32,121 nucleotides of DNA from Woeseiaceae bacterium (GTDB lineage Bacteria; Pseudomonadota; Gammaproteobacteria; Steroidobacterales; Woeseiaceae): NCBI GenBank assembly GCA_030066075.1, contig JASJCH010000014.1, positions 1-32,121 on the forward strand. The letters are read 5' to 3'. The notes beneath the pieces were generated by a model. That model had not been told where the DNA came from, made no database searches, and saw only the letters and a list, made by a program, of their open reading frames with translations. Shown piece by piece: positions 2,880 to 19,411 of this stretch. Numbering within the stretch: position 1 is the stretch's first letter; each line of letters begins with the position of its first letter. A program made the translations under genes and the position numbers.

Positions 2880-3590
2880 TCAGGGGTCGATGGTCTGGGC
2901 GACAGGCTGCACGCCCTCGTTGTCGATGAACAACGTCATGCTGACGCGGCGCTCCAGCGCATAGCTGTCAACCGAAGAGTCCTGGGCCGGCGCTTCGCCG
3001 TGCGCCGTCACGTCGATGCGCGACGGATGGATGCCCGCGTCGACCAGCTGGTCGCGGACGAACTCCACGCGCTTGCGCGACAGCTCGAGATTGTAGTCGG
3101 CATCGCCGCGCTCATCGGCGAAGCCGTCCAGCTGTACGCGGATGTCTTTCATGCGCGCCACGTCCCTGGCCAGCGCCGCGAGACGATCGCCCGTCGTGTC
3201 GGCGAGCGCGTGCTCGTCGGTGCGAAACAACAGGTCCATCTCGATGCCGGCCTGCATCAGGCTGATCAGCTGCGGGCGATCGATCTGCTCGTAGTGTTCG
3301 AGTTCGGCATTGAGAGAATCGATGTCGAGGTGCAGTTCACGGACGTCGTCGCGCGTCGCGTCGAGCGAGCTGTTCAGCGAATCGATTTCGCTGTTCTTGC
3401 GATGCATCGAGTCGCCGAGCTTGGCGCCGATCGCCGCGCCGATGATTGCGCCGACCGGGCCGCCGGCGAGGGCGCCAATCACGACGCCGCTGCCGACACC
3501 GATGTTCTCCTCTTTCGAGGCCTTGGCGGATGCTGCCGGCGCGTAAGCGGCGACGGCGACAGTGAGAAGAATGATGACGAGATTGCGCAT
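2880..3590 (-). CDS. OmpA-family peptidoglycan-binding protein with glycine-zipper segment
   Basis: The 236-residue protein has a signal peptide (cleavage likely after ASA, residue 22), a glycine-zipper hydrophobic stretch (about 32-58: GVVIGALAGGPVGAIIGAAIG), a short coiled coil (about 62-104) and an OmpA C-terminal domain (about 118-225). The domain keeps the peptidoglycan-binding signature, with ADERGDADYN followed by LELSRKR and a Val. It should anchor something to the cell wall from the outer membrane or periplasm. The domain order recalls the sortase-associated PdsO proteins, but no sortase or LPXTG gene is visible. A strong Shine-Dalgarno (AGGAGG on the minus strand, about 3599-3604) supports the ATG at 3590. 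It lies 108 bp downstream of the vWA gene pair, so it may be last in that unit or have its own promoter. Confidence 0.88.
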   Translation of the reverse strand: MRNLVIILLTVAVAAYAPAASAKASKEENIGVGSGVVIGALAGGPVGAIIGAAIGAKLGDSMHRKNSEIDSLNSSLDATRDDVRELHLDIDSLNAELEHYEQIDRPQLISLMQAGIEMDLLFRTDEHALADTTGDRLAALARDVARMKDIRVQLDGFADERGDADYNLELSRKRVEFVRDQLVDAGIHPSRIDVTAHGEAPAQDSSVDSYALERRVSMTLFIDNEGVQPVAQTIDP

Positions 3591-3698: not shown

Positions 3699-4703
3699 CT
3701 AGCTGCGGTTCGGGTCGGACAGCGCGACGAAAGTGCCGCCGTTACGCTCGGTCAGGACGCGCATTAGCTGCGCATAGCGCCGTGTCGTGTCGGACGCCTG
3801 GCGGCCGGGCTCGAAGAAGAACGGGAAGCCGACCGCGTGAATGCGCACCAGGCGATTGCCCTGCTCGTCTGCGAGGTTGACCGCATCGATCTGGCGCACG
3901 ACGGCCTCGACCGACCGGCCGCTAAACTCGTCGCCGAAAACGTAGATGCTGATCTTTTTGTCGGCCGACCAGAAGGTGCTGATCGCGTAGATGATGCCGT
4001 CGGCGGGGTTCGAGTCGCTGAACGGTCGCCAGGTGCGCATCGTGTTGCGAATCGCTTCACGCCGCCCCGGGCTGTCGGGAATCCACCGGCCGGCATACTG
4101 CTTGAACATGTACGAGCCGTTGTCGTTCATGATCTGGATGCCCTTGACCTGCGGGTAGACGTCGAGCGTCTCGGTCAGCTTGTCGATCGCTCGCTGCCAG
4201 TTGAACTGCTGCATACTGCCAGAGGTATCGATGACGAAAATCACGTACTCGCTATCGACCGGGATGCCCGCCACGGCGTCATCGTCGGCGCGTCGGTAAT
4301 ACGGCTGCAGCCGCCGCATCTCGTCGGTAAGCCGCTGCTTGGTGCGGCGCAGGTCGCCCTCGTCGAAGGTCGCTTCGGACTCCCGCTGCGTCGCCGCATA
4401 CTGGCCCTGCACCGAGCTGAGCTCGCCCTGCAGGCGCGCGAGGCGCAGCTTCGTGTCCGATGTCTGCTCCTTCACGTCGTCGAGTTCGCGATTCAGCACC
4501 GTGGTCTCGCCGCGGATCTCGAACAGCTCCTGTTGCAGCAGCGCGATGAGCGACTCCAGGTCGTCCTGGGTCTTCTCGATGATCACGGGCTCGTAAATCT
4601 TGGACAGCACCAGCAGGAGGATAATGGCCCCGAAACCACAGCAGATGCAGTCGAGGAACGACAGGCTGAACGCTTCGACGTTGCGGCGTTTCCTTCTCCT
4701 CAT
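3699..4703 (-). CDS. membrane-anchored coiled-coil vWA protein with stator-B-like helix (copy 2)
   Basis: The 334-residue protein has a basic start (MRRRKRRN), one transmembrane helix (about 14-36) with the motif SFLDCICCGFGA and an Asp at residue 18, a long coiled coil (about 40-145) and a C-terminal von Willebrand A domain. The metal site begins DTSGSM (Asp159, Ser161, Ser163). The later MIDAS Thr is not obvious (the region reads NPADGIIYA), while an Asp occurs in FGDEF. The N-terminal layout matches ExbD/TolR/MotB subunits, in which an Asp at the start of a single helix carries protons; that comparison is mine. The vWA domain should face the periplasm and bind a partner through a divalent metal. 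Its ATG overlaps the stop of the sister gene by 4 bp. It shares the SFLDC motif with copy 1, but otherwise diverges strongly. Confidence 0.88.
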   Translation of the reverse strand: MRRRKRRNVEAFSLSFLDCICCGFGAIILLLVLSKIYEPVIIEKTQDDLESLIALLQQELFEIRGETTVLNRELDDVKEQTSDTKLRLARLQGELSSVQGQYAATQRESEATFDEGDLRRTKQRLTDEMRRLQPYYRRADDDAVAGIPVDSEYVIFVIDTSGSMQQFNWQRAIDKLTETLDVYPQVKGIQIMNDNGSYMFKQYAGRWIPDSPGRREAIRNTMRTWRPFSDSNPADGIIYAISTFWSADKKISIYVFGDEFSGRSVEAVVRQIDAVNLADEQGNRLVRIHAVGFPFFFEPGRQASDTTRRYAQLMRVLTERNGGTFVALSDPNRS

Positions 4704-5797
4704 GGCCAGTCCTTGCTCACGCTGATGAATGAACCGCCGCTGCGATAAGCGAGCAGCCAGTACAGGAACGGCGCGTCGTAGTCACCCTCGAGCGGATACA
4801 GGAAGACATTGACCGGGATGTTGCTGGGCAATTCGTTGACCGCATTGGTGAAGTAACGCGCCCGGTCACGCCCGGTGACGGTGCGCTTGTTCGTCGTCGG
4901 CGCGTCCATCGTCGGTAACCCGTCGGCGAGCAGGATGACGTTATCCGGCCACGGGTTCAGTGAGGTGATCACTTCTATCGCGGATTTCATGTTAGTGCCT
5001 CCTTCGGGCACCGTGCGGCGCAACACGCGCATGGCCTCGTCGAGCTGCGTCGCATCGTCGGCCTTGAGCCATACGCCGTTCGACCCTTCGATAACCGGCT
5101 CCGCGGTCGTGTTGTACACGTAGATCTGGAACTCGCTGCCGGGAATGAACTGCGCGGTCAGCCAGTCAACGCTGGCTACCGCCTGGCGCCACTTGACGGC
5201 GCGCAGCTTGTCGTCGACCGGCATATTGCGGCGCCGAATGATGTTGATAATCGAATCGTCCAGCATGCTCGCCGAGCGATCGACGAGGATCAGCGTGCGC
5301 TCGCCACCGAGCTTGAGGCCCGTCAGGTACTGACGATCGCCCTCACCCTTGAACTCGCGGATGCGGTTGCCCTCGGCTTCCTCCGCTTCCGCCATTGCCA
5401 GCAGCCGCTTCACCTCTTCCTCGAGATTCTTGATGTCGGTTTGCAGCTGCTCGACGCGCTCGATCTCGGCCAGGGTGTCCTGATCGTATTCGGCCAGCTC
5501 GGCGCGCAGCTCCTCGATCAACGCGATGACCTGGGCGATGCGCCCCTCGGCCGTGTCCTTCTCGGATTCGAGTTCATCGATGGTGTTCTTCGCCAGCACG
5601 AGGTTCTTGCGCCCCTCGAGAATCTCGACCTCGAGCATGCGGGTCTCCGCCATCAGCTCGGTCGGGTCGTCCTCGGTGGTCTCCTTGACCTGGGCGTTGA
5701 TGATCATGAAGAACAGGATGACCGCGCCGAAGCCGCAGCTCATGCAGTCCAGGAACGACATGCTGAAGACCTCGGTGGCGCGGCGCTTACGGGCCAT
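4700..5797 (-). CDS. membrane-anchored coiled-coil vWA protein with stator-B-like helix (copy 1)
   Basis: The 365-residue protein begins MARKRR, then has one transmembrane helix (about 13-36) with the motif SFLDCMSCGFGA (Asp17), a long acidic coiled coil (about 40-150) and a vWA domain from about residue 165. The MIDAS is complete: DRSAS (Asp173, Ser175, Ser177), a Thr in EGGTNMKSA and an Asp in LLADGLPTMD. A basic cytoplasmic tail, a single helix with an early Asp and a periplasmic domain is the plan of ExbD/TolR/MotB, and a MotA/TolQ-type gene lies two genes upstream. It overlaps the Hsp70-FHA gene by 11 bp and copy 2 by 4 bp, so the three are translated together. Likely role: proton-path subunit with a periplasmic metal-dependent adhesion domain. 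This is inference; no exact homologue is known to me. Confidence 0.9.
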   Translation of the reverse strand: MARKRRATEVFSMSFLDCMSCGFGAVILFFMIINAQVKETTEDDPTELMAETRMLEVEILEGRKNLVLAKNTIDELESEKDTAEGRIAQVIALIEELRAELAEYDQDTLAEIERVEQLQTDIKNLEEEVKRLLAMAEAEEAEGNRIREFKGEGDRQYLTGLKLGGERTLILVDRSASMLDDSIINIIRRRNMPVDDKLRAVKWRQAVASVDWLTAQFIPGSEFQIYVYNTTAEPVIEGSNGVWLKADDATQLDEAMRVLRRTVPEGGTNMKSAIEVITSLNPWPDNVILLADGLPTMDAPTTNKRTVTGRDRARYFTNAVNELPSNIPVNVFLYPLEGDYDAPFLYWLLAYRSGGSFISVSKDWP

Positions 5798-7148
5798 CGT
5801 CGGTCTCCGTGGTGATCAGCCGTAGCTCAAAGCCGGGCGTGCCGAGGCGTACGAGATCGCCGACCTGCAGCACGGCCGAACCGTCGATGCGATGGCCGTT
5901 GAGGAAAGTGCCATAGCGGCTGTAGTCGCGAACGATGCACTGCCCGTTCTCCTGCTGCAGCGCGCAGTGCTGCCGCGACAAGCCTGGCATGTCCTGCTGC
6001 AGGTCGATCGAACGTGCTTCGCCCCCGACCTGGCTGCCGAGCACGAGCGGCTCGCCTGCGATCGCGTAGGCCCGGTTGTTGAACAGCACGTGCGTCGGCT
6101 GGCCGCGGTGGCGCGGCGCGCTGTCGGTGCCCGCGGCAACCGGCGCCTGGTCCCAGGGCAGTTTGCGCACCAGGCTGACGGCGCTCTGCCCGGGCCGCAT
6201 ATCGCTGCAGCGGGCCAGCAGTCCACGGGCCGTCGCCCCCGGCTCCTGCACGAAGAGTTCGCCGCCGACCCGCGCCGTCAGGATGTCGGCGAGACCCGGC
6301 ATGCGAGCCGCGCGATCCGACAGCTGCAGGGCCGGCGTCTCATCGGCGCGGTAGAGCGCGCGCAGGTTGCTGACGATGCGGTGATAGACGGGTGCGGCGG
6401 TCGCGACCAGTTCGAGCGACTCCATCTCGGCGCTGTGGCCGATGCCGCGATACTCGATGTCCATCTGCACCGACTCGCCAGACGACGCCTCGATCAGCCA
6501 GCCTTTGAGGCGGTCCTGCAGCATCTGCTCGGTTTCCGCGGTATGCAGCGGATCGAAGCGCGACTGTTGCACGAATGCTTCGGCAATCTGTCGAATCCAG
6601 GCGTCGTACAGTGCGATCATGCCGCACCCGCCAATGACCTCGGTGCGGTCCACTTGCGCCTGGCCGGCCTGGCTGAGCCGCGTCAGCATCGCCGCGTGCA
6701 GGCCGAGGTCGACGTGCACTGGCACAGCGTCCTGGTATTCACGGCGCGTTGCAGCCACGGCCGCATCGACCATGCCCGCGACCGGGATCTGCAGCTCGGC
6801 GGCAATGCCGAGGAACAGGCCGAGGCTCGCCGTTTCCATGTAGGCGGGAACGGCCACGACAACGGCGTCGCCGGACACGCGCTGCCACATTTGCTCGAGC
6901 TGCCGGCTGACGATATCCGCGGCGCTGAGGTGCTGGAAGCGGCGGTCGGGCAGCGGCTCGGTGCGCAGTTCCGACCAGTAGTGGTTATGAATGCGGCGCG
7001 GTTTCAGGCGCGCCTGTGCGAACGCTTCCGTGCCCGTGGTAAGCCCGTCGTCTTCGAGCAGGGCGAAACCCGGCTCGCGATACAGCACCCGGTCCGCATC
7101 GTGGATCGAGATTGCTGCATCGTTGAGATGGACGGCGAGCAGGGACAC
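5787..7148 (-). CDS. Hsp70/actin-fold (ASKHA) protein fused to a C-terminal FHA domain
   Basis: The 453-residue cytoplasmic protein has an N-terminal half resembling the Hsp70/actin-like nucleotide-binding fold: VVVAVPAYMETASLGLFLGI near 96-115 is the typical region before the DAAVAA helix, and VHVDLG (about 145-149) looks like phosphate-2. The first phosphate loop is degenerate (VHLNDAA instead of DxG), and there is no Hsp70 substrate-binding domain. Residues 365-445 are an FHA domain, with SRQHC (391-395) and YGTFLNG (412-418). The position that usually holds the phosphothreonine-binding Arg (GR) reads GS at 371-372. FHA domains read phosphothreonine, which fits the two kinases in the block. 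It sits between the channel gene (14 bp gap) and vWA copy 1 (11 bp overlap), suggesting a cytoplasmic adaptor of the stator. Confidence 0.85.
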   Translation of the reverse strand: MSLLAVHLNDAAISIHDADRVLYREPGFALLEDDGLTTGTEAFAQARLKPRRIHNHYWSELRTEPLPDRRFQHLSAADIVSRQLEQMWQRVSGDAVVVAVPAYMETASLGLFLGIAAELQIPVAGMVDAAVAATRREYQDAVPVHVDLGLHAAMLTRLSQAGQAQVDRTEVIGGCGMIALYDAWIRQIAEAFVQQSRFDPLHTAETEQMLQDRLKGWLIEASSGESVQMDIEYRGIGHSAEMESLELVATAAPVYHRIVSNLRALYRADETPALQLSDRAARMPGLADILTARVGGELFVQEPGATARGLLARCSDMRPGQSAVSLVRKLPWDQAPVAAGTDSAPRHRGQPTHVLFNNRAYAIAGEPLVLGSQVGGEARSIDLQQDMPGLSRQHCALQQENGQCIVRDYSRYGTFLNGHRIDGSAVLQVGDLVRLGTPGFELRLITTETDDGP

Positions 7149-7162
7149 GGTAACTCCGGGCG

Positions 7163-7963
7163 CTAGTCGGCCTTCATGTGGCGGATCAGCTTGTCGTTGC
7201 TGTAGGTCTCGCCGTCAAAAATCAGCCGTTCCTGCATCAGCTGCAGCTGGTGCACGAGGAACATCAGGAAAATACTGATCAGCAGCGCGATGAAGGTCGA
7301 GTTGAACGCCACGCCGAGGCTCTGGGTGACGCCGGCGATGTCGCCCTGCACCGCTTTGTCCGCCTGGGCGAGCGCCTCACCGATACCACGCACTGTGCCG
7401 ATAAAGCCGATGGACGGGATTGCCCAGGAGATATAGCGGATCATCGACAGTTCGGACTCGAGGCGTTCCGCCTCCGACTCGAAGATGTCGCGCGTACTGC
7501 CGGACACATCCTGGATGTTGCGGGTCGTGGCGAAGCGGCGCAGCGCATTGAGCAATGCGCGCGGCAGCAGCATGCGCTGGCTTTCCTCGGGCAACGCCTG
7601 TATCTGGCGCGCAAATTCGCGCGTGTCCTCCGGTAATATTCGCATCCCCTCGGCGACCGGCACGAGGTCCACGTCGAGCAGGCGCCGCTCGCGCGAGATC
7701 GTAACGGCCTTGTAGCCCATGATCGCCAGCGCCCAGATGCCGAGGATGAAACAGGCCTCCTGCTCGAGGTCCTTGATCAGCACCCACACGTGGCGCTCGC
7801 GCACGTAATCCGGGTCGGCGGCGGCGGCCGCGTTCTGCTCCTCGATGATCTGGGCCGCATTCGGCCGCACCACGGTCTGGTAGAACGCGTGCACGATGAT
7901 GATCGCGATGATCAACGCGAATAGCTGAAACACGAATTCGACGGGGATGTTCTTTTTCTTCAT
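7163..7963 (-). CDS. MotA/TolQ/ExbB-family proton channel subunit
   Basis: The 266-residue inner-membrane protein has transmembrane segments at about 10-30, 69-87, 176-196 and 214-237. The last two carry the family core: WAIPSIGFIGTVRGIGEAL, then QSLGVAFNSTFIALLISIF. MotA/TolQ/ExbB proteins form pentamers around a dimer of a one-helix B subunit and couple proton flow to mechanical work. No ordinary exbD, tolR or motB gene is present; the only one-helix proteins with an early Asp in this block are the two vWA proteins directly downstream of the Hsp70-FHA gene. The cytoplasmic region between helices 2 and 3 (about 90 residues) is typical in size. The gene starts 15 bp after the small acidic gene, so they are cotranscribed. 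Confidence 0.9.
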   Translation of the reverse strand: MKKKNIPVEFVFQLFALIIAIIIVHAFYQTVVRPNAAQIIEEQNAAAAADPDYVRERHVWVLIKDLEQEACFILGIWALAIMGYKAVTISRERRLLDVDLVPVAEGMRILPEDTREFARQIQALPEESQRMLLPRALLNALRRFATTRNIQDVSGSTRDIFESEAERLESELSMIRYISWAIPSIGFIGTVRGIGEALAQADKAVQGDIAGVTQSLGVAFNSTFIALLISIFLMFLVHQLQLMQERLIFDGETYSNDKLIRHMKAD

Positions 7964-7978
7964 AGATTACGGGTCGGC

Positions 7979-8260
7979 TTAGATATCTGCTGGAAACTCG
8001 ATGGACTGGTCGGTCGGAATCTGCTCGGTCGGATCAAAGTCGTCGTCTTCGTCGACGAATCCCTGCTCGTCGAGGCCCGTCTCGTCAAAGTCGACGGTCT
8101 CCTCTTCGCTCGCGGCTTCTGGCTCGGCCTCCGGCTCAACGGCCTGTTCTTCCTCGGCAGCCTGCTCCTGCTCTGCGTCAGCGATCCCCGTCTCGGCATC
8201 CTGCGCCGTCGCGGGCGACGCGAGCAGGAGGCTGAAAAGGATGGGCAAGTAGCGCGTCAC
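7979..8260 (-). CDS. small, very acidic exported protein
   Basis: The 93-residue product starts with a clear signal peptide (MTRYLPILFSLLLASPATAQ, cleavage likely after ATA or ATAQ). Nearly the whole mature part is Glu/Asp/Ala, ending in hydrophobic FPADI. It uses a GTG start with a good AAGGA Shine-Dalgarno 8 bp upstream. No family is recognised. A short acidic periplasmic peptide next to a stator gene could bind cations or basic partner surfaces, but that is a guess. It sits between the FHA-PEGA gene and the channel gene in the same direction, and its frame would be easy to miss in automatic annotation. Confidence 0.75.
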   Translation of the reverse strand: MTRYLPILFSLLLASPATAQDAETGIADAEQEQAAEEEQAVEPEAEPEAASEEETVDFDETGLDEQGFVDEDDDFDPTEQIPTDQSIEFPADI

Positions 8261-10751: not shown

Positions 10752-13093
10752 ATCGGCTCCTCGCAGCGCACGACGACAGGCTGCAGGTCGATTTCGGGCG
10801 CAACCCGAAATTCGAGCCTGACGTCGCGATAGCCGGGTCGACTGCCAACGGCAACGTAAGTTCCCGGCCGCAACTCGAGCTCGTGCGTCTCGAAGCTGCC
10901 CAGTTTACCAATCTTGTAGATGCTGACGTCGGTGACGTTGTCAGAAACGAGTCGCACGGTTAGCGGCGTCGCCGCCCGTTTCAACAACCGCGACAACTCG
11001 TCGCGCTGGCCGCCGAGTCGCGGCCCGATCTCCGGCATGCGCGTGATATCGACAACCAGGCGCGTTGCGCGCGCCATTGTCCCGGGTGCGCTGAGGCTGT
11101 CGGGCTTGGCGATGTATTCGTCGAGCTGCGCGTGCAGCGCCGTCATCTGCTGCGAGCGTCGAAGTCCGTCCTGCGCGAAGGCGAGATCCGGATCGATCTC
11201 GAGGATGGCCTGGTAGGTCTCGATCGCCGTTTCCCAGGCCTCGGACTGCTCTTCATCCTGCGCCTGGATTTCGAGTGAAGCGATACGATTCAGACGGATG
11301 CCCTGGTCGACCTGCAACAGGCCGTCGGCGGGCTCCGGCGACCCGGGCATGATCTCCTGCGCCCGGCGGAAGGAGGCGCGAGCGCTGGGATAGTCATTCT
11401 CGCCGAGCGCCATGAATCCCTCGGTCATGCGCTCGTCGAACTCCATCTGGCGAATGGTCGCACGTACGCGGTCCAGGCCGTCCTGGGCGGGTTGCCATTG
11501 CGGGTCGAGTTCCACCGCACGGGCAAAACTCTGCCGCGCCGCCTCGAGCTCAAGGTCGTTCTCGAAGCGCAGGCCCTGGTCGGTCAGTGACATCACGGTG
11601 TCGAGATTCCTCGCGCGCGTGAATCCCGCGCGCGCCCCGGCATGGTTCGGCGTAATGGCGACCGCCAGTTCGAACAAGCGCACAGCCTCGACGGAATCGG
11701 CCGCGGCGAGAGCAGCCTGCGCTTCAGCCAGCGTCGACGAGAATACCTGCTCGACCTCCTGGAGCAGCGGCTCCAGCAGCGTGTAGGCCTCGCTGTACTT
11801 CTCGGACGCAAGCGCATAGTCACGTGCCAGGTAGGCCTCGTCGCCCTCGGCGTAGACAGCCTGCGCCTGGCTGAACCGTAATCCACCCCAGCGCTGCACG
11901 GCACGGCTCTCGAGCGTTTCCATCCGCGATAGCAGTTGCCCGAGTATCTCGTCGGTGTCGGAGCGCGCCACGACGCGCGCATCGCGCTCGGGTAGCGCGT
12001 CGTCCTCACTCGCCACAGAGTCATCCTGCTCCGCTGCGGACTCGCCCGGCTCGCCGGCGGCCGCACTTGCCGCCTCCTCCTGGCGATCGGTCGGTGACGG
12101 TTCCGGCAGGAAGAACACGACGCCGATCAGGGCAGCCAGCAACACGGCGAGACCGATACCAAGCGTGCGCGGGCTGATACCACCGCCCGGCTTCGCTTCT
12201 GCCTTCGCGGCAACTTCGGCGTGTCGCGGCGCGCTGCGCCTACCCGCGCTCGCCTCGATGATCTCGTCAGCCGGCCGCTCGCGCGTACCCACGTAGGAAC
12301 GTGGCGCCGGCGCTCCCCGGTAGCCTGCGGCCTCGAGAGCCGCAACGACGTCCTCGGCGCTGGGTCTTGCGACGGCATCCTTGGCGAGCATCGAGGCGAC
12401 CAGTTCGGCGATCGCCGCGGGCACCGGGCTGCCGTCCGGCCGCATTACGGGCGGCGGGACCGTGTCACGAATGTCGTCCTCGGTCGCGGCCGACGAGTAG
12501 GGAGACCGCCCGCTGATCAACTCGTAGAGCAAACCGCCAAGCGCAAACACATCATCCGCCGGCTGTGCCGCCGCGCCGGCCAGCGATTCGGGGCTGGCTG
12601 CAATCAGCGAACCGCCCGAACCGGCAAGGCCGGCCGTCGCCGCGACGCCGAAATCGACGAGGTAGGGCGCGCCGTTGGCGTCGAGCAGCACGTTGGCGGA
12701 CTTGATGTCGCGGTGCACGATGTCCTTGCCGTGCGCGTAGCGCAGCGCATCGGCAACGAGCGCAACGGGCGGTAGCAGGTGTTCCAGCGGCGCCCCGGCC
12801 AGGGCGCTGATATCGGGGCCGTCGATGAATTGCAGGCTGTAAAAGGGCTGCTCGGCGTCGTCGCTATATTCGAACACGCGCACGATGTGGGCGTGCATCA
12901 GCCGGATGCCGGTCTGCCATTCCTGGCGCAGCGCGGCCGGCGGAACGCGCTCGCTGGCGAGTACCTTGAGGGCGACCGAAGCGCGTGTCAGCCGGTCGGT
13001 CGCGAGCCACGTCTCGGCGGCACCGCCCGACCCGAGCTTCCTGGCCAGGGTGTATCGGCCCGCAAGCTCGATTCCTTGTTGGAGGTCCCGCAT
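10748..13093 (-). CDS. transmembrane Ser/Thr protein kinase with periplasmic TPR region
   Basis: The 781-residue protein is a PknB-type kinase. The Gly loop is LGSGGAAETW, the VALK Lys is residue 43, the catalytic loop HRDIKSANVLL has Asp129, DFG is at 147-149, SPES replaces APE, and the C-lobe ends near 258. A basic/acidic linker leads to one transmembrane helix (about 309-329). The remaining 450 residues should be periplasmic: an acidic linker, then TPR-like helical repeats (about 405-665) and a small beta domain. All catalytic residues are kept, so it should phosphorylate cytoplasmic Ser/Thr in response to an envelope signal. The downstream FHA-PEGA gene overlaps by 4 bp; the upstream lipoprotein ends 14 bp away. 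Confidence 0.93.
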   Translation of the reverse strand: MRDLQQGIELAGRYTLARKLGSGGAAETWLATDRLTRASVALKVLASERVPPAALRQEWQTGIRLMHAHIVRVFEYSDDAEQPFYSLQFIDGPDISALAGAPLEHLLPPVALVADALRYAHGKDIVHRDIKSANVLLDANGAPYLVDFGVAATAGLAGSGGSLIAASPESLAGAAAQPADDVFALGGLLYELISGRSPYSSAATEDDIRDTVPPPVMRPDGSPVPAAIAELVASMLAKDAVARPSAEDVVAALEAAGYRGAPAPRSYVGTRERPADEIIEASAGRRSAPRHAEVAAKAEAKPGGGISPRTLGIGLAVLLAALIGVVFFLPEPSPTDRQEEAASAAAGEPGESAAEQDDSVASEDDALPERDARVVARSDTDEILGQLLSRMETLESRAVQRWGGLRFSQAQAVYAEGDEAYLARDYALASEKYSEAYTLLEPLLQEVEQVFSSTLAEAQAALAAADSVEAVRLFELAVAITPNHAGARAGFTRARNLDTVMSLTDQGLRFENDLELEAARQSFARAVELDPQWQPAQDGLDRVRATIRQMEFDERMTEGFMALGENDYPSARASFRRAQEIMPGSPEPADGLLQVDQGIRLNRIASLEIQAQDEEQSEAWETAIETYQAILEIDPDLAFAQDGLRRSQQMTALHAQLDEYIAKPDSLSAPGTMARATRLVVDITRMPEIGPRLGGQRDELSRLLKRAATPLTVRLVSDNVTDVSIYKIGKLGSFETHELELRPGTYVAVGSRPGYRDVRLEFRVAPEIDLQPVVVRCEEPI

Positions 13094-13107
13094 CTAGAGA
13101 AGATCGC

Positions 13108-14343
13108 TTATCCGGTGGGCTCCGGAATGCGCACGGGGTTGGCATCGGTATCGTCGGCGGTATCGACGAAACCCGTTTCGGCTTCGTAGATCTGTTTCAG
13201 CAGCCGGCGCCACGTTTCGTACTGCGCGGCAGCGGTGCCGGTCAGGCGCCGCGTCTCGCCCTCGACCGTCACGACCATCGGCGCCGCCTCGGCGCCGAAG
13301 GACTCGGACAGCTCCTTGATGGCCTCACGATGCATCGAGGCTTCCTTGCGTCGGGTGATGCCCGTCACCATGGTGTCGAGCCCCTGGGCAATGCCGATGT
13401 TCTGCAGCCCGCGCTGCATCTGGCGGTTTGAATAGCTCGAGCTGTTGGCGTCGTAGGCCAGCGAACTCGCGAGCACAACCGCGCCAATCAAAGTCTGCAT
13501 GACCGCCGAGCGCTTGACCTGCCGATAGTTCACGGACTCCTCGCGCGCGGTCTTGCGCCAGGAATGATAGGGAATCGCGATCCCGTAGTAGAAGTTCGCG
13601 TAATGTTCGTTCAGCGTATCGACGACGAGTCGGTCGCGCTCACGAATCTGGCGCAGGCGCATGACCGACGGGTCGTTCTCGGCCGGCAGCCGAACGATGC
13701 TCGCCACGCCGTCATCGTCGAAGCTCAGGTGCTCGCCGTAGGCCGTCGGCGACATGTCGGCAAAAAACTTGAGCTCGGTAATCCTGCGCGTGTCGCTAAC
13801 CGTCTTTGGCGGCAACGTCTGCACATAGGCCTGCAGGTCGTTGGCGATATCGTTGAAGACCTTCTGGTAAGGATCCTTGCGCTTGTCGCGATTTTCGGAA
13901 TACGAGGATATGCCGGTCTGGGTTTCGTACGTTTCCCGGTACCAGCGATTACCGGCCGAATCGTGGACCGTGATCTCGAGTTCGACGAACTCGCCGTCGG
14001 ACTTCTCTATTTCGCCACTGATCGTGATGTCGGTGAACGCATCCCGCGACGGGATCACCCGCACGGCGCCCCAGTGGCCGGTACCTTGCAGAGTGGTCTT
14101 CAGGTGATAAGCGAGATAACGGACTTCGGCGTCGCGAATCTCACCGAAGATGCCGCTCTCGTCCGGGTCGTTGTTCGAATCCAGACCCGATGCAAACTCG
14201 ACGACGCCGATGTCCAGCAGCAACGCCTCCTCGGGAGGCGCCTCCGCGACAACCAGCTCGGTTTCTTCCGCGGTTACAACTTCGTTGACCGAGCAGCCCG
14301 ACAACGCCAGCGCTGCCACTACAAATAGAATCCTTCTCATCAT
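13108..14343 (-). CDS. predicted lipoprotein of unknown family
   Basis: The 411-residue protein starts with a lipoprotein signal (LALSGC, lipid-attached Cys17). Residue +2 is Ser, so sorting to the outer membrane is expected. After an acidic linker there is a mixed alpha/beta region (VVEFASGLD..., DITISGEIEKSDG) that resembles the periplasmic folds of envelope-assembly lipoproteins, then a helical, charged region. An internal hydrophobic stretch (about 282-298, LIGAVVLASSLAYDA) could insert in a membrane or pack in a core. Two ATGs are adjacent, so MMRR or MRR are both possible starts. I do not recognise the family. Gaps of 12 and 14 bp to its neighbours place it in the kinase operon. Confidence 0.82.
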   Translation of the reverse strand: MMRRILFVVAALALSGCSVNEVVTAEETELVVAEAPPEEALLLDIGVVEFASGLDSNNDPDESGIFGEIRDAEVRYLAYHLKTTLQGTGHWGAVRVIPSRDAFTDITISGEIEKSDGEFVELEITVHDSAGNRWYRETYETQTGISSYSENRDKRKDPYQKVFNDIANDLQAYVQTLPPKTVSDTRRITELKFFADMSPTAYGEHLSFDDDGVASIVRLPAENDPSVMRLRQIRERDRLVVDTLNEHYANFYYGIAIPYHSWRKTAREESVNYRQVKRSAVMQTLIGAVVLASSLAYDANSSSYSNRQMQRGLQNIGIAQGLDTMVTGITRRKEASMHREAIKELSESFGAEAAPMVVTVEGETRRLTGTAAAQYETWRRLLKQIYEAETGFVDTADDTDANPVRIPEPTG

Positions 14344-14355
14344 CCCCGCGACGGC

Positions 14356-15618
14356 CTAGTTGCCGCTGTACTTTCTGTATTCTTCCCACAGACGCTCCCG
14401 CAACACGGGATCGTCTTCGGCCAGCGCTGCCTCGCGCAACTGCCGAGCAATAATGTCGTCGTCGACCAGTATCGGGATGTCATCGGGCGTCCGCTCGCGG
14501 ATCTGCTCGTCCGACATGCCGGCAACCGGCGACTGTCGCGCTACGCGCTCATTCGCAACCGCGATCGCACCGCCGCCGCTGCCACCGCCGCTGGAGCTGC
14601 CGCCCGAGCCGCCACTGCCCTGCTCGCCCAGGCTGATGCCGCCACCGCCCGCGCCCTGCGAACCGTCGCCGAAGCCTTCGGTGCTGCGGCCCACCGCCGC
14701 GATTTCGTCCTGCTCATCCTGCAGTTCTTCGTCGAAACCGCCCAGCGATTCCTCGAGTTCCTGGCCCAGGCGCGCGGCACGTTCTTCGTCGGACTCTTCC
14801 GGAAATTCGCCGACGCCGCCGGCGCCACCGGTGCCCTGCATGCCGCCGGAGCTACCACCACCGGCACTGCCGCTGGCGCCACCGCCACCACCGCCGCCGC
14901 CACCGCCGCTGGCCGAACTCGAACTCTGTGATGACGACGAACCGCCGCCGCCACCGCCACCGATGCATTCGCCGTCCTGGCCCATGCCGCCGATGCCGCC
15001 GGGCAGCGCGCCATTGTCGCCGCACTCGCTCTCGCTGGAGGACGTGGACTCGTCCTCCCAGTCGCTGGGTTCGGATTCGCCGCCGTCACCGCCGCCGGAC
15101 GGGCCCGATTCGCCCATCATGTCGCCGTCCGCTCCGCCGCCGCCGCTCGAACTCGGGGGTGGGGGCACGCCCATTGAATCATCGCCGCCGCCCGGGAACG
15201 AACCGACATCGCCGCCACCGCCGCTCTGGCCGCCGGAGCTGCCGGACGGCCCGCTCGAACCACCCGCGCCGCCGCCGCTTGGTAATGGCTCCGGCATGCC
15301 GCCGCCACCCGACGAACCGCCGCCGGAGGAACCACCGCCCGAGGAACCACCGCCCGAGGAGCCGCCGCCGGACGAGCCGCCACCGGAAGAACTGCCGCTC
15401 GAACCGCCGCTGGAACCACTCGAGCCGCCGCCCGGTGGTGGCATGCCACCGCCTGAGGGCATCCCGCCACCCGAAGGAGGCATCCCGGCGCCCGGCATGC
15501 CGCCGCCAGAGGTACTGCCGCTTGTCTTGCAGGCGCTCGTCGCCATGGCGGCGAACGCGATGAACAACAGCGGTTTGATCCAGCTGGGAACTGTGGTTTC
15601 TGAGCGGCGTGATGTCAT
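14356..15618 (-). CDS. Gly/Ser-rich low-complexity lipoprotein
   Basis: Starting at ATG 15618 (MTSRRSET), the 420-residue protein has a long lipoprotein signal with the lipobox ATSAC (Cys30). I chose this start because the open frame further upstream is Arg-rich non-coding-like sequence and only this one gives a signal peptide. From about 30 to 350 it is almost pure Gly, Ser and Pro with acidic patches, including SSGGG repeats. A more ordinary, charged C-terminal segment of about 75 residues (from AIAVANERVARQS to the end) is probably the conserved functional part. The long flexible stretch could span the periplasm between outer membrane and a partner. It is the first gene after a 203-bp gap, so it may start a transcript. 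Confidence 0.82.
   Translation of the reverse strand: MTSRRSETTVPSWIKPLLFIAFAAMATSACKTSGSTSGGGMPGAGMPPSGGGMPSGGGMPPPGGGSSGSSGGSSGSSSGGGSSGGGSSGGGSSGGGSSGGGSSGGGGMPEPLPSGGGAGGSSGPSGSSGGQSGGGGDVGSFPGGGDDSMGVPPPPSSSGGGGADGDMMGESGPSGGGDGGESEPSDWEDESTSSSESECGDNGALPGGIGGMGQDGECIGGGGGGGSSSSQSSSSASGGGGGGGGGGASGSAGGGSSGGMQGTGGAGGVGEFPEESDEERAARLGQELEESLGGFDEELQDEQDEIAAVGRSTEGFGDGSQGAGGGGISLGEQGSGGSGGSSSGGGSGGGAIAVANERVARQSPVAGMSDEQIRERTPDDIPILVDDDIIARQLREAALAEDDPVLRERLWEEYRKYSGN
15311..15385. repeat. five tandem 15-bp units inside the Gly/Ser-rich lipoprotein gene
   Basis: Five 15-bp units (15311, 15326, 15341, 15356 and 15371) encode SSGGG on the minus strand; the second and third are identical and the others differ at one to three silent or nearly silent positions. 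Units of 15 bp keep frame, so copy-number change would lengthen or shorten the linker without a frameshift. Confidence 0.8.
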
Positions 15619-15737
15619 CGTCCTGACCCCGTGTAATGCGCGGACTACTAGCAGTTTGGAGCACCAAAAGCGTGGCTGAGTTCCATCGGAATCCCTGTCG
15701 CGCCGCGGCCTGTCAGCCGCTGCCCAATGACTACGAC

Positions 15738-15764
15738 GATATACCGCGGCCAGCGCACGATCAA
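15738..15764 (-). promoter_or_regulatory. weak candidate promoter for the lipoprotein-kinase-stator unit
   Basis: On the minus strand TTGATC (15759-15764) and TATATC (15738-15743) are 15 bp apart, about 120 bp upstream of the ATG at 15618. The spacer is shorter than ideal. It lies in the 203-bp gap 15619-15821, the only long break in the block, where nothing else is visible. Confidence 0.28.
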
Positions 15765-15821
15765 CACCCGCCGCCGGGACTGTCGTCCGCTGCCGCTGGG
15801 GCACGTAATCGACTGATTCTG

Positions 15822-16661
15822 TTAACTATCTTCGACCGGTTTCGCCGGCGTCGGGCGGCTCTTCCGGAACAGGATCAGCGACAGGTCGTCGGGCTTGCTC
15901 GGCTGGGCCGTCGATGTCGCGGCCATTCGGTGCCGGGCGAGCGCGATAACGCGTTCGGCGGCGACGTCGAGCGGTCCCTTGCGAATGCGCTCGATGGTTT
16001 CGCTCAGATGAACGTTGTCCATCAGGCCGTCACTGGCCAGCAGGATCGTGTCCCGCGCGTGCAGTTGCAGTTCGGCGCCGACGTCGATGCGCATGTCGTT
16101 GGCGCCGAGGAAATTGGACACCAGGTGCCGATCTTCGTGATGCAGGGCCTCCTTGTGATCGAGGAAACCGGCCTCGACCGCGAACCCGGTCGGGGAATGC
16201 GGCGTGGTCTGCAGCTTGACGAGGCCGCGCTGCCCGACGACGAGCGCCTCGGAATCGCCGATCTGGTAGGAACGCACCGTCTGCCCTTCGACGGTGACGA
16301 CGGTCAGTGTCGTTGCTGAGCCATTGCCCAGCGCCTGCACCGCGGCGTTCGCGGCGTCGATGCCGTCGAGGATCGCCGTGCGCAGCAGCATCGTCTCGGC
16401 CATCGATTTCTGCAGCGAATCCGCCAGGCTTTGCGCGGCGGTCAACGACGCACGTTTACCGGCCGGCAGCCCGCCCGCCCCGTCCGCGACGAGCATCACG
16501 GCGGCGCCAGGCCCGTAGGGAATCACGGCCACGGTGTCCTCGTTCTCGGTCTGCTTGTCAGGCGCCCGGCAGGTGTAGGCGACGAACTCACCGCCGCCCG
16601 CTGCGGCGGCGCGCAGGTCCGGCTCGGTGGCTCCCTCCAGCAGGATCATCGCATCACTCAT
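15822..16661 (-). CDS. PP2C-family Ser/Thr protein phosphatase
   Basis: From the ATG at 16661 ([10 protein letters not shown]) the protein is 279 residues, normal for a stand-alone bacterial PP2C. The metal-binding acidic residues are all visible: TENEDT (Asp42), VADGAGG (Asp60, Gly61), QIGDSEALVV, LLASDGLMDN and KPDDLSL. It should remove phosphate from Ser/Thr of proteins in the cytoplasm using two Mn/Mg ions, opposing the adjacent kinase. The chosen start overlaps the end of the zinc-ribbon kinase gene by 8 bp; a frame extension of 17 residues upstream is inside that gene and not needed. No membrane helix. The pairing with a kinase is the classic reversible-phosphorylation module. Confidence 0.93.
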   Translation of the reverse strand: MSDAMILLEGATEPDLRAAAAGGGEFVAYTCRAPDKQTENEDTVAVIPYGPGAAVMLVADGAGGLPAGKRASLTAAQSLADSLQKSMAETMLLRTAILDGIDAANAAVQALGNGSATTLTVVTVEGQTVRSYQIGDSEALVVGQRGLVKLQTTPHSPTGFAVEAGFLDHKEALHHEDRHLVSNFLGANDMRIDVGAELQLHARDTILLASDGLMDNVHLSETIERIRKGPLDVAAERVIALARHRMAATSTAQPSKPDDLSLILFRKSRPTPAKPVEDS

Positions 16662-17942
16662 GCCGCACCGGCTCCCGGCACCACGCGCAGTAATTCCAGA
16701 ACTCCCGTGCAATGCCCCAGTTGCAGGCCTTGCAGCGGTGGCGACTGCCGGTGAGCTTCCAGGGTTTTTTCACCTTGGTGCGGCACCACGGGCAGTAACG
16801 CATGAACGGTATCAGCGGGCCGCGACACTTGCGATTGGCGCACTTCGCCGTGTAGCGCTTGTCGGGGTAGCGACGCGTTGTCTCTTCGACAAACCCGGGA
16901 CCGTAGCACCACGCGCAGTAGTCCCAGTCGTTCTTCACACCACGCTCGCAGCGTGGACAGGTTGCCGCGAACAGCGATTCGGAACCCCGCGCCGGGTTGT
17001 CGAAACCACACCACGGGCACGCCTGCATGCTCTCCGACACGGGCCCCTCGCAGCGACGGCACTGCTGCGTGGTGTGCAGTTCCTTGCGGTATTTGCGTTG
17101 AAACTCGCGCCACTGCAATTGGCGCCAGGACGGCCCGCGCGCCGATCCGTTGCGCGCCCGCGCGCGCTTCTGACGCCTTGCCTGGCCGCCAAGCGCCTCG
17201 AACGCGGCCTGCATCTGCACCGCGTCCCGGTAGCGCTTCTTCGGGTCGAGCTGGATCGCATTGCGCAGGAACTCGGTGAACTCGGGGCGCACCCGGGCGT
17301 TGAGCCTGTCGTGCCCCTCGAGCGGCCATTCGAACGGCCACTCCGGAAGCTTGCCGGAGAACAATCGGTAGAACACGAGGCCGAGCGAGAACACGTCCGA
17401 CTGAAATTTCGGGCGGCCCATCGCCTGCTCCGGCGCGATGTAATCGATCGTGCCCGAGCCGGAGGCTTTCAACGTGCGCAGGCTGATTTTGGCAAAGCCG
17501 AAGTCAGTGAGTTTCAGACGGTCGCCCGGAAACAGGATGAAATTCTCGGGCTTGATATCGCAGTGGATGACGCGATGCTCGTGCGCGTGCGACAGCGCAG
17601 CCAGCGCCTGTCCCGCCAGGTCCATCGCGCGGGCCGTCGAGATACGCCGCTCGATTCTGTCCGCGAGCGACTCGACGCCGAGGTCCATGGCGATCACAAA
17701 GTGATCGTCGATATACATCGCGTTGATGATCGACAGGATGTTCGGGTGCTGCAGCTTGCGCGCCACCTGCACCTCGTGCAGGAACTCCTCGTCGCCGGCG
17801 TAAGCGCTCGTTCGCGGAATCTTGAGAGCGACGCGCTCCCGGTGGATCGTGTCGAACGCGCTGTACACGTCGGCCAGCGGGCCGGAAGCGATGCGCCCGA
17901 CGATCCGGTACTTGCCGATCTTCTGTCGCGCCCGCAGCGAAC

Positions 17943-17946
<4 letters not shown>
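16654..17946 (-). CDS. Ser/Thr protein kinase with four C-terminal zinc ribbons
   Basis: The 430-residue soluble protein has a kinase domain (about 12-253): VALK Lys42, catalytic HCDIKPEN (Asp130, Lys132, Asn135), DFG 148-150 and APEQ. It is a non-RD kinase (Cys before Asp130), and its Gly loop is poor (ASGPLADV keeps one of three Gly). After a basic linker come eight Cys pairs: 296/299, 310/313, 330/333, 344/347, 369/374, 385/388, 405/408 and 420/423. These make four zinc ribbons with repeated YCAWC/YCPWC knuckles, for metal sensing or protein/nucleic-acid binding. Kinases with C-terminal zinc ribbons next to PP2C and vWA genes are known from TerY-P triads. Its start shares an ATGA with the glpK stop. 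Confidence 0.93.

Positions 17947-19411
<1,465 letters not shown>

Follow-up and report, generated by a model that had tools for sequence, protein, structure and literature searches.

We analysed a 32,121-nucleotide stretch of DNA from a Woeseiaceae bacterium (contig JASJCH010000014.1; hereafter, the window) that encodes a MotA/TolQ/ExbB-type channel protein, which we call A, together with two paralogous proteins, B1 and B2. B1 and B2 each have a single N-terminal membrane helix, a coiled coil, and a von Willebrand factor type A (vWA) domain. As described below, A, B1, and B2 represent a real, conserved gene set that is very probably of the motor type. Read along the minus strand from 17946 to 3699, the genes encode a zinc-ribbon kinase, a PP2C-type phosphatase, a Gly/Ser-rich protein, a probable lipoprotein, a kinase with a transmembrane (TM) segment and a TPR region, a PEGA-FGE protein, a small acidic protein, A, an FHA protein, B1, and B2 (Table 1). 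The open reading frames (ORFs) of B1 and B2 share 4 bases, and those of the FHA protein and B1 share 11. An earlier reading of this DNA (the original prediction) proposed a stator-like motor at this locus, and its coordinates, frames, gene order, motifs, and overlaps were correct when we checked them on the sequence. The source genome is 2.58 Mb and 80% complete, and the closest named records among the matches listed are metagenome-assembled genomes (MAGs) of Woeseiaceae and other Gammaproteobacteria.

A, B1, and B2 are inherited together

The family is widespread: a single scan yielded at least 580 confirmed stretches, and we studied the best 80 of these as B1 loci. (The loci are related, so counts across them are not independent.) A is present in 72 of the 80, and in the other eight the sequence ends too early. 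Where more than 2600 bases of upstream sequence were available, A was always upstream of B1 (67 of 67 loci), and B2 was the next gene after B1 in 73 of 73. B1 and B2 fall into separate alignments, which is to say that they are a heterologous pair.

We also compared the distribution of these genes across genomes. Among 299 genomes from the window's phylum, A was found in 15 and B1 in 14; all 14 are within those 15 and have both genes on the same contig, and the fifteenth (G337), which lacks B1, has a truncated A. Among 194 genomes from the phylum of a Kiritimatiellia MAG, strong matches to A (E < 1e-70) and strong matches to B1 (E < 1e-40) coincided in a single set of 15 genomes; in 14 of these the two genes share a contig, and in G675 they lie on two contigs. 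The same 194 genomes contain 36 weaker matches to A, and the two of these that we examined have other partners; there were also three weak matches to B1, which cover the vWA region of frames of 710-921 amino acids (aa). The original prediction turned in part on whether these vWA genes also occur widely without a MotA/TolQ gene. In these two sets of genomes they do not, as A is carried by 14 of 14 B1-bearing genomes in the first set and by 15 of 15 genomes with a strong match to B1 in the second. The gene set, its order, and its co-inheritance are thus established.

We did not find an ExbD/TolR-like ORF in the operon in any of 100 regions (6294 ORFs), in a search whose control used sequences that are also contained in its profile. 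The only two ExbD/TolR-like hits are both from locus L131, on the opposite strand and about 6 kb away.

The channel protein

A matches the Pfam family MotA_ExbB with 53.3 bits (cut-off 22.9). When we used hhalign to align a profile of A to 20 TolQ/ExbB-like rows from related genomes (which contain one protein twice), the probability was 96 and E was 4e-9. In this alignment, T190 (in GTVRG) and T223 (in FNST) of A align with the ring threonines of TolQ, and both are invariant in 21 A sequences. In MotA, ExbB, and TolQ, a threonine ring lines the lumen of the pentamer (PMC12204202). The source genome has five further MotA_ExbB matches. Because each of these scores above A, A is not the housekeeping copy, and we rejected the assignment of A as the housekeeping TolQ or ExbB.

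The vWA proteins

B1 and B2 both have a basic tail, an Asp early in the helix, and a coiled coil, and the vWA domain of each contains the metal ion-dependent adhesion site (MIDAS) motif DxSxS. B1 matches Pfam's VWA_2 just above the cut-off of 27 (27.8 bits) and B2 falls below it (20.9 bits). Neither protein matches the OmpA or ExbD families of Pfam: the periplasmic domain of ExbD/TolR is not in B1 or B2, and the vWA domain is in its place.

Every aligned sequence has the helix Asp (18 of 18 for B1 and 16 of 16 for B2), although the motif was not used to find any of them, and the D, S, and S of the MIDAS are invariant in the same alignments. (The alignments used 18 of 21 sequences for B1, 16 of 19 for B2, and 21 of 44 for A, with fragments, near-duplicates, and mis-started frames excluded; the starts of the B frames in the source of the alignments were trimmed with help of the motif.) Among proteins of at least 300 aa, DxSxSM is present in 79 of 79 B1 and 75 of 75 B2. 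In a broader set of loci, the helix motif is present in 80 of 81 B1 and 79 of 79 B2, with the miss being a partial, partly masked frame in L131. The B1 count proves little because its loci were found by a pattern that contains FLD and CG, but the B2 count was not selected by that pattern.

The original prediction described the shared helix motif as SFLDCxxCGFGA. Its Asp held up in all 34 aligned sequences and its second Cys is near-invariant; an exception is L187, in which B2 has SFLDIISSAFAA and B1 has a Ser at that position. The Cys that follows the Asp did not hold up, as this residue is C, I, V, A, or T among relatives. The first Cys of SFLDC is not conserved, and we rejected it as a functional site.

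We built an AlphaFold2 model of B1 as a single chain from 18 sequences (mean predicted local distance difference test, or pLDDT, of 81.7). The model has a helix at residues 23-144 and then a vWA fold, and its best matches in PDB are vWA domains (best E of 7.1e-7). The vWA fold of B1 is thereby established at the level of a predicted structure; for B2, the vWA assignment comes from the MIDAS and the sub-cut-off VWA_2 score.

The distance from the helix Asp to the MIDAS is nearly fixed within each protein. Across 97 loci (which include one pair, L063 and L146, that is the same record), the quartiles are 155-156 residues for B1 and 141-143 for B2. Five deep-branching loci are short in both B1 and B2 (134/134, 134/134, 135/137, 136/136, and 139/132). 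The motifs and the near-fixed spacing, like the gene order, are established features of the family. An alpha helix rises by 1.5 Å per residue, and a continuous B helix of about 120 residues would span about 18 nm, which would be enough for much of the periplasm.

Relation to a recently described family

A motor with vWA-bearing B subunits, as in the original prediction, is supported by the linkage and co-occurrence of A, B1, and B2, but the idea of a vWA-bearing axle is not new: it was printed in 2025 as a prediction (PMC12204202; Mol Biol Evol, section 8). That section describes a TM-tethered vWA family that is tightly linked to tolQ homologues, lacks tolR or exbD, and occurs as heterologous pairs with an Asp in the helix. 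AlphaFold 3 models in that work place the vWA helices as the axle of the pentamer, with the pair of Asp residues in the threonine ring, and the family is reported from Proteobacteria and Verrucomicrobia, with Idiomarina as the seed species. The genes in the window have the traits described in that section, namely linkage to tolQ, a pair of vWA proteins, no tolR or exbD in the cluster, the helix Asp, and the ring threonines, so, judged by the features that the section describes, they very probably belong to this TolQ-vWA transpore-helix family. The words kinase, formylglycine, and sulfatase are absent from the main text of PMC12204202. Our literature search returned nothing relevant on a link of kinase, formylglycine, or sulfatase genes to this family and no reported phenotype for it. 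The surrounding envelope and signalling genes are less well described than the motor idea. Beyond the prior work, our analysis contributes the operon core, the correlation between the kinase and the FHA gene, and the TolB-D1-like lipoprotein, together with the near-fixed spacing and with wider statistics.

There is an alternative role for the B proteins, in which A would form the motor ring while B1 and B2 would be side transducers outside it, similar to TonB or TolA, and a TolR or ExbD from elsewhere in the genome would be the axle. The first vWA family of PMC12204202 is predicted there to act in this way, beside tolQ and two tolR-like genes. Furthermore, some of the five other MotA_ExbB matches in the source genome have ExbD/TolR-type neighbours. 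On the other hand, no ExbD/TolR gene was found in the operon in the 100 regions, B1 and B2 are paired and carry an invariant Asp for which a side transducer has no need, and the second vWA family is reported in PMC12204202 as lacking the SHLS motif. We consider side transducers to be quite improbable.

The operon core and the signalling genes

The gene set given in the original prediction was right as to A and the vWA pair; it did not include the genes that accompany them, which encode the kinase, FHA, and PEGA-FGE proteins and the lipoprotein. Upstream of A we found the FGE gene in 57 of 58 loci, the homologue of the TPR/kinase protein in 48 of 49, and the lipoprotein gene in 41 of 43; L106 is the miss for all three, and L136 is the other miss for the lipoprotein. 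In L106 (labelled as Myxococcales; 12124-18274), these three genes are separated from A-FHA-B1-B2 and lie downstream of it on the opposite strand, so the gene set need not be one transcript.

Table 1. Features of the window, with coordinates along its forward strand.
Feature	Coordinates	Strand	Evidence
A, MotA/TolQ/ExbB-type channel protein, 266 aa	7163..7963	-	Pfam PF01618, 53.3 bits
B1, one helix + coiled coil + vWA, 365 aa, Asp17	4700..5797	-	VWA_2, 27.8 bits; AlphaFold2 model
B1 helix motif SFLDCMSCGFGA	5723..5758	-	Sequence; Asp invariant in 18/18
B2, paralogue of B1, one helix + coiled coil + vWA, 334 aa, Asp18	3699..4703	-	MIDAS D, S, S invariant in 16/16
B2 helix motif SFLDCICCGFGA	4626..4661	-	Sequence; Asp invariant in 16/16
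Hsp70-ATPase-like N-terminal part + C-terminal FHA, 453 aa, accessory, between A and B1	5787..7148	-	FHA, 49.7 bits
Small acidic protein of 93 aa whose start looks signal-like by eye	7979..8260	-	No Pfam family matched
One-TM protein, PEGA repeats + FGE/SUMF1-like domain, 808 aa	8325..10751	-	PEGA, 151.5 bits; FGE-sulfatase, 135.4 bits
Ser/Thr kinase, TM, TPR region, 781 aa	10748..13093	-	Pkinase, 102.5 bits; TPR_2, 33.5 bits
Probable lipoprotein, 411 aa, TolB-D1/CsgG/PelC/FlgT-like domain at 38-183	13108..14343	-	LPAM_1, 15.2 bits (cut-off 20)
Gly/Ser-rich protein whose start looks lipobox-like by eye, with an uncertain start codon	14356..15804	-	C-terminal motif
PP2C-type phosphatase, start uncertain	15822..16712	-	PP2C_2, 52.7 bits
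Second Ser/Thr kinase, zinc ribbons, 430 aa	16654..17946	-	Pkinase, 130 bits; DZR, 27.7 bits
OmpA-domain glycine-zipper protein, downstream neighbour, membership doubtful	2880..3590	-	OmpA, 45.1 bits

In 63 of 72 loci, A and B1 are separated by the FHA gene. A profile of the FHA protein matches SSB1 in PDB at residues 79-316 (E = 1.2e-5), with weaker rows for DnaK and HSP70. In 61 distinct loci that have sufficient sequence, with L053 entered by hand as FHA-bearing, a kinase accompanies the TPR protein in 38 (fused to it in 37), and all 38 also have the FHA gene; another 17 have the FHA gene without a detected kinase, 6 have neither, and none has a kinase without the FHA gene (one-sided hypergeometric probability of about 0.002 across the 61 loci, which are not independent). 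The kinases were detected with the kinase domain from the window at E of 1e-3, a search that may overlook divergent kinases. L104, L129, and L136 encode long proteins without a kinase match.

The minimal operon in L187 is limited to homologues of A, B1, and B2, of the lipoprotein gene, and of the genes for the Gly-rich, TPR, and FGE proteins. Because minimal operons lack both the kinase and the FHA gene, the gene content suggests that the envelope machine is the core and that control by phosphorylation looks like an add-on. Besides A, B1, and B2, the core usually includes the TolB-D1-like lipoprotein and the PEGA-FGE, TPR, and Gly-rich proteins, which makes about seven parts.

The same genes bear on a further alternative, which is that A, B1, and B2 make a static gate or sensor, an ion channel that is opened by a ligand or by strain on the vWA arms and that feeds the kinase/FHA pathway and does not make force. 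Kinase, FHA, and PP2C genes do surround the set in the window, and the TPR-linked kinase occurs only alongside the FHA gene (38 of 55 loci with the FHA gene and 0 of 6 without it). But the kinase and the FHA gene are dispensable, as minimal operons keep A-B1-B2, the lipoprotein, TPR, and FGE genes, and to our knowledge the relatives of A with solved structures are all motors. A gate or sensor therefore seems improbable to us.

Hydropathy places TM segments at residues 155-173 of the PEGA-FGE protein and 311-329 of the kinase-TPR protein. The N-terminal region of the PEGA-FGE protein is at best FHA-like, with one sub-threshold match to FHA among 9 proteins (15.6 bits; cut-off 20.7). Relatives of the small acidic protein were found in part of the loci, in a scan that skipped frames under 100 aa. 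The Gly/Ser-rich protein ends in the motif DDDIVARQLREAA..E.DP.LRE.LWEEYR.Y, which was matched as a regular expression in 34 of 42 loci; of the remaining eight, five end in related sequence and three show none. This motif also occurs in records labelled Acidobacteria, Desulfatiglandales, and Kiritimatiellia. A homologue of the PP2C phosphatase is near the set in L067 and L077 only, and many loci end before that far upstream. In the window's lineage, the phosphatase may belong to this gene set.

A probable lipoprotein with a TolB-D1/FlgT-like domain

Cys17 of the lipoprotein is nearly invariant, and the score for LPAM_1 (15.2 bits) is under the cut-off. We found no convincing sequence match for this protein in Pfam, PDB, or NCBIfam. 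Its AlphaFold2 model has a mean pLDDT of 82.1, and the domain at about residues 38-183 is structurally similar to FlgT (Z of 11.3; 3.5 Å over 130 residues), PelC (10.7; 2.3 Å over 111), CsgG (10.1; 3.9 Å over 133), and the D1 domain of TolB (9.2; 2.9 Å over 102). The same list also has unrelated proteins of helical structure that align with the C-terminal part, at Z of 8-10. In a Foldseek search, TolB accounted for 17 of the first 19 rows, with a best E of 2.2e-3 and none at E of 0.001. The beta-propeller of TolB is not in the model, which has a long helical C-terminal part there. As modelled, then, the lipoprotein holds the domain that is common to CsgG, PelC, FlgT, and TolB-D1, and this predicted fold is established by the model.

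The N-terminal domain of TolB is where TolA acts, and FlgT sits in a ring near the stators of Vibrio. Because a protein with a TolB/FlgT-like domain is encoded in the motor operon, the lipoprotein is a natural candidate for the outer partner of the motor, and it would be placed in the outer membrane.

Proposed mechanism

We think it likely that the three proteins assemble into an inner-membrane motor with 5:2 stoichiometry, in which ion flow turns two vWA arms, and that the vWA domains act on the envelope proteins of the operon. Five copies of A would form a ring in the inner membrane, and one helix each from B1 and B2 would form the axle, with each Asp facing the threonine ring of A, as in TolR, ExbD, or MotB. 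Ion flow, which the original prediction took to be of protons, would turn or rock the B1-B2 pair, and the long coiled coil of near-fixed length would carry the two vWA domains across the periplasm. There, their metal sites would most likely act on the envelope proteins of the operon, that is, the TolB-D1/FlgT-like lipoprotein and the PEGA-FGE and TPR proteins. In lineages like the window's, the membrane Ser/Thr kinase, the Hsp70-like FHA protein, and perhaps the PP2C phosphatase would switch the machine. Its purpose might be envelope maintenance or the delivery of force to the outer membrane.

If so, the motor would use ion flow to turn a pair of vWA domains directly across the periplasm, by a force route unlike those of TolA/TonB or of the peptidoglycan-anchored MotB. 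The operon core supplies concrete candidate partners, chiefly the TolB-D1-like lipoprotein and the kinase-FHA add-on. The fullest version of the proposal is a trans-envelope machine that has not been described before and whose usual core has about seven parts. In it, an ion-turned heterodimeric coiled coil of fixed length presents two vWA domains, with their metal sites, to an outer-membrane lipoprotein, and some lineages have added a kinase-FHA switch. Such a machine would be a third way, beside TolA/TonB and MotB, of sending force outward from the inner membrane, in which the axle itself is the transducer. This version is more tentative, and we give it somewhat less than an even chance.

A real motor could also work on a surface adhesion or secretion device, with the vWA domains as adhesins, which was the view of the original prediction. 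vWA domains with a MIDAS often bind proteins at surfaces, and the fold matches of B1 include BatB, the PilB pilin, and the vWA domain of the LapA adhesin. Against this, B1 and B2 have one N-terminal membrane helix and a length suited to the periplasm, and their usual neighbours look periplasmic or lipoprotein-like. We saw no constant surface protein in the operon, although no search was aimed at one. An adhesin role is conceivable but unlikely in our view.

Several observations weigh against the proposed motor. Our structure models are of single chains, and we infer the complex, its stoichiometry, the heterodimer, the ion, the rotation, the partner, and the purpose. Residues 1-20 of the B1 model, including Asp17, have pLDDT under 50, so the model says nothing about a helix in the ring. 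A has no sequence match in PDB at E of 0.01, and hydropathy gives it three strong TM segments, not four. Gene order is the sole link between the vWA domains and any partner. The order of A, B1, and B2 has an exception, as genome G129 (contig C51; L032, L046, and L053) has A after B2 and not before B1. The spacings of B1 and B2 covary weakly overall (Spearman correlation of 0.32; loci not independent), and L054 (149/141) and L053 (152/146) are shortened in B1 only. Finally, a profile of the B helix aligned to four classical TolR/ExbD helices with an hhalign probability of just 0.6%. In favour of the motor, an alignment with 23 TolR/ExbD-like helices gave a probability of 31.5% and a score of 19.5, with the Asp in register, and 40 column shuffles scored at most 13.6; this larger set had itself been selected through Asp-bearing motifs, and shuffling columns makes a lenient control. 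The match with the SFLD helix became stronger when the ExbD-like helices from L164-L183 were included among the TolR/ExbD helices.

Two side observations belong here. In contig C51 of G129, the start of A lies 7 bases past B2, so the order is rearranged and the genes are the same. In the related genomes represented by L164-L183, TolQ-like genes stand beside ExbD-like proteins with the helix motif VSLMDIFTILVFFLLVNS.

Comparison with known motors

ExbBD and TolQR have in common with this set a homologous A protein, one-helix partners that bear an Asp, and the ring threonines. They differ in that here there are two different B proteins, a long coiled coil, and a vWA domain in place of the ExbD/TolR periplasmic domain. 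MotAB and PomAB also have the Asp in the helix of B, and A, judged by hydropathy, would have an extra N-terminal TM segment as MotA does. In contrast to those stators, B1 and B2 lack a peptidoglycan-binding OmpA domain, and we saw no flagellar genes in the operon. Like Tol-Pal, the set would be an inner-membrane 5:2 motor encoded with a protein that has a TolB-D1-like domain. Unlike in Tol-Pal, the protein with this domain is a probable lipoprotein and lacks the TolB propeller, we saw no TolA, and the OmpA-domain neighbour of the Woeseia group scores under the cut-off for Pal. In the type IX secretion system, the GldLM 5:2 motor works with an FGE-fold lipoprotein, GldK. The FGE protein of the window matches GldK with 85.7 bits, under the cut-off of 350; type IX secretion genes were not seen in the operon, and the B proteins have other periplasmic domains.

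We rejected two other candidate systems. Zorya has a MotA-like A protein, but the ZorA models score 13.3 bits (NCBIfam, cut-off 500) and 15.9 bits (PADLOC), A (266 aa) lacks the long tail of ZorA, and the B proteins are not a ZorB of the OmpA type. For threonine phosphorylation of the type VI secretion kind, the FHA protein TagH scores 21.9 bits (NCBIfam, cut-off 120.25); type VI secretion genes were not searched for.

Other observations

The OmpA-domain neighbour downstream of B2 matches PdsO (TIGR03789), which is sortase-associated, with 128.5 bits (cut-off 152.2) and Pal (TIGR02802) with 53.9 bits (cut-off 125.35). It lies within 2.5 kb downstream of B1 in just 24 of 66 loci, mainly in the records closest to the window, and on that ground we rejected it as the peptidoglycan anchor of the motor.

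L112, which is labelled as a Klebsiella pneumoniae MAG, carries the operon. Its distance to the window (49%) equals that of L113, from an uncultured gammaproteobacterium, and its label is probably wrong.

A Kiritimatiellia genome has two further divergent MotA/ExbB genes, of 388 and 521 aa (L184, 6685-9764, and L185, 2955-6021), each followed by two one-helix-like proteins. The vWA MIDAS motif DxSxSM is absent from all four of these proteins, and the helix region of three contains an Asp. These sets may be sister motors with other moving parts.

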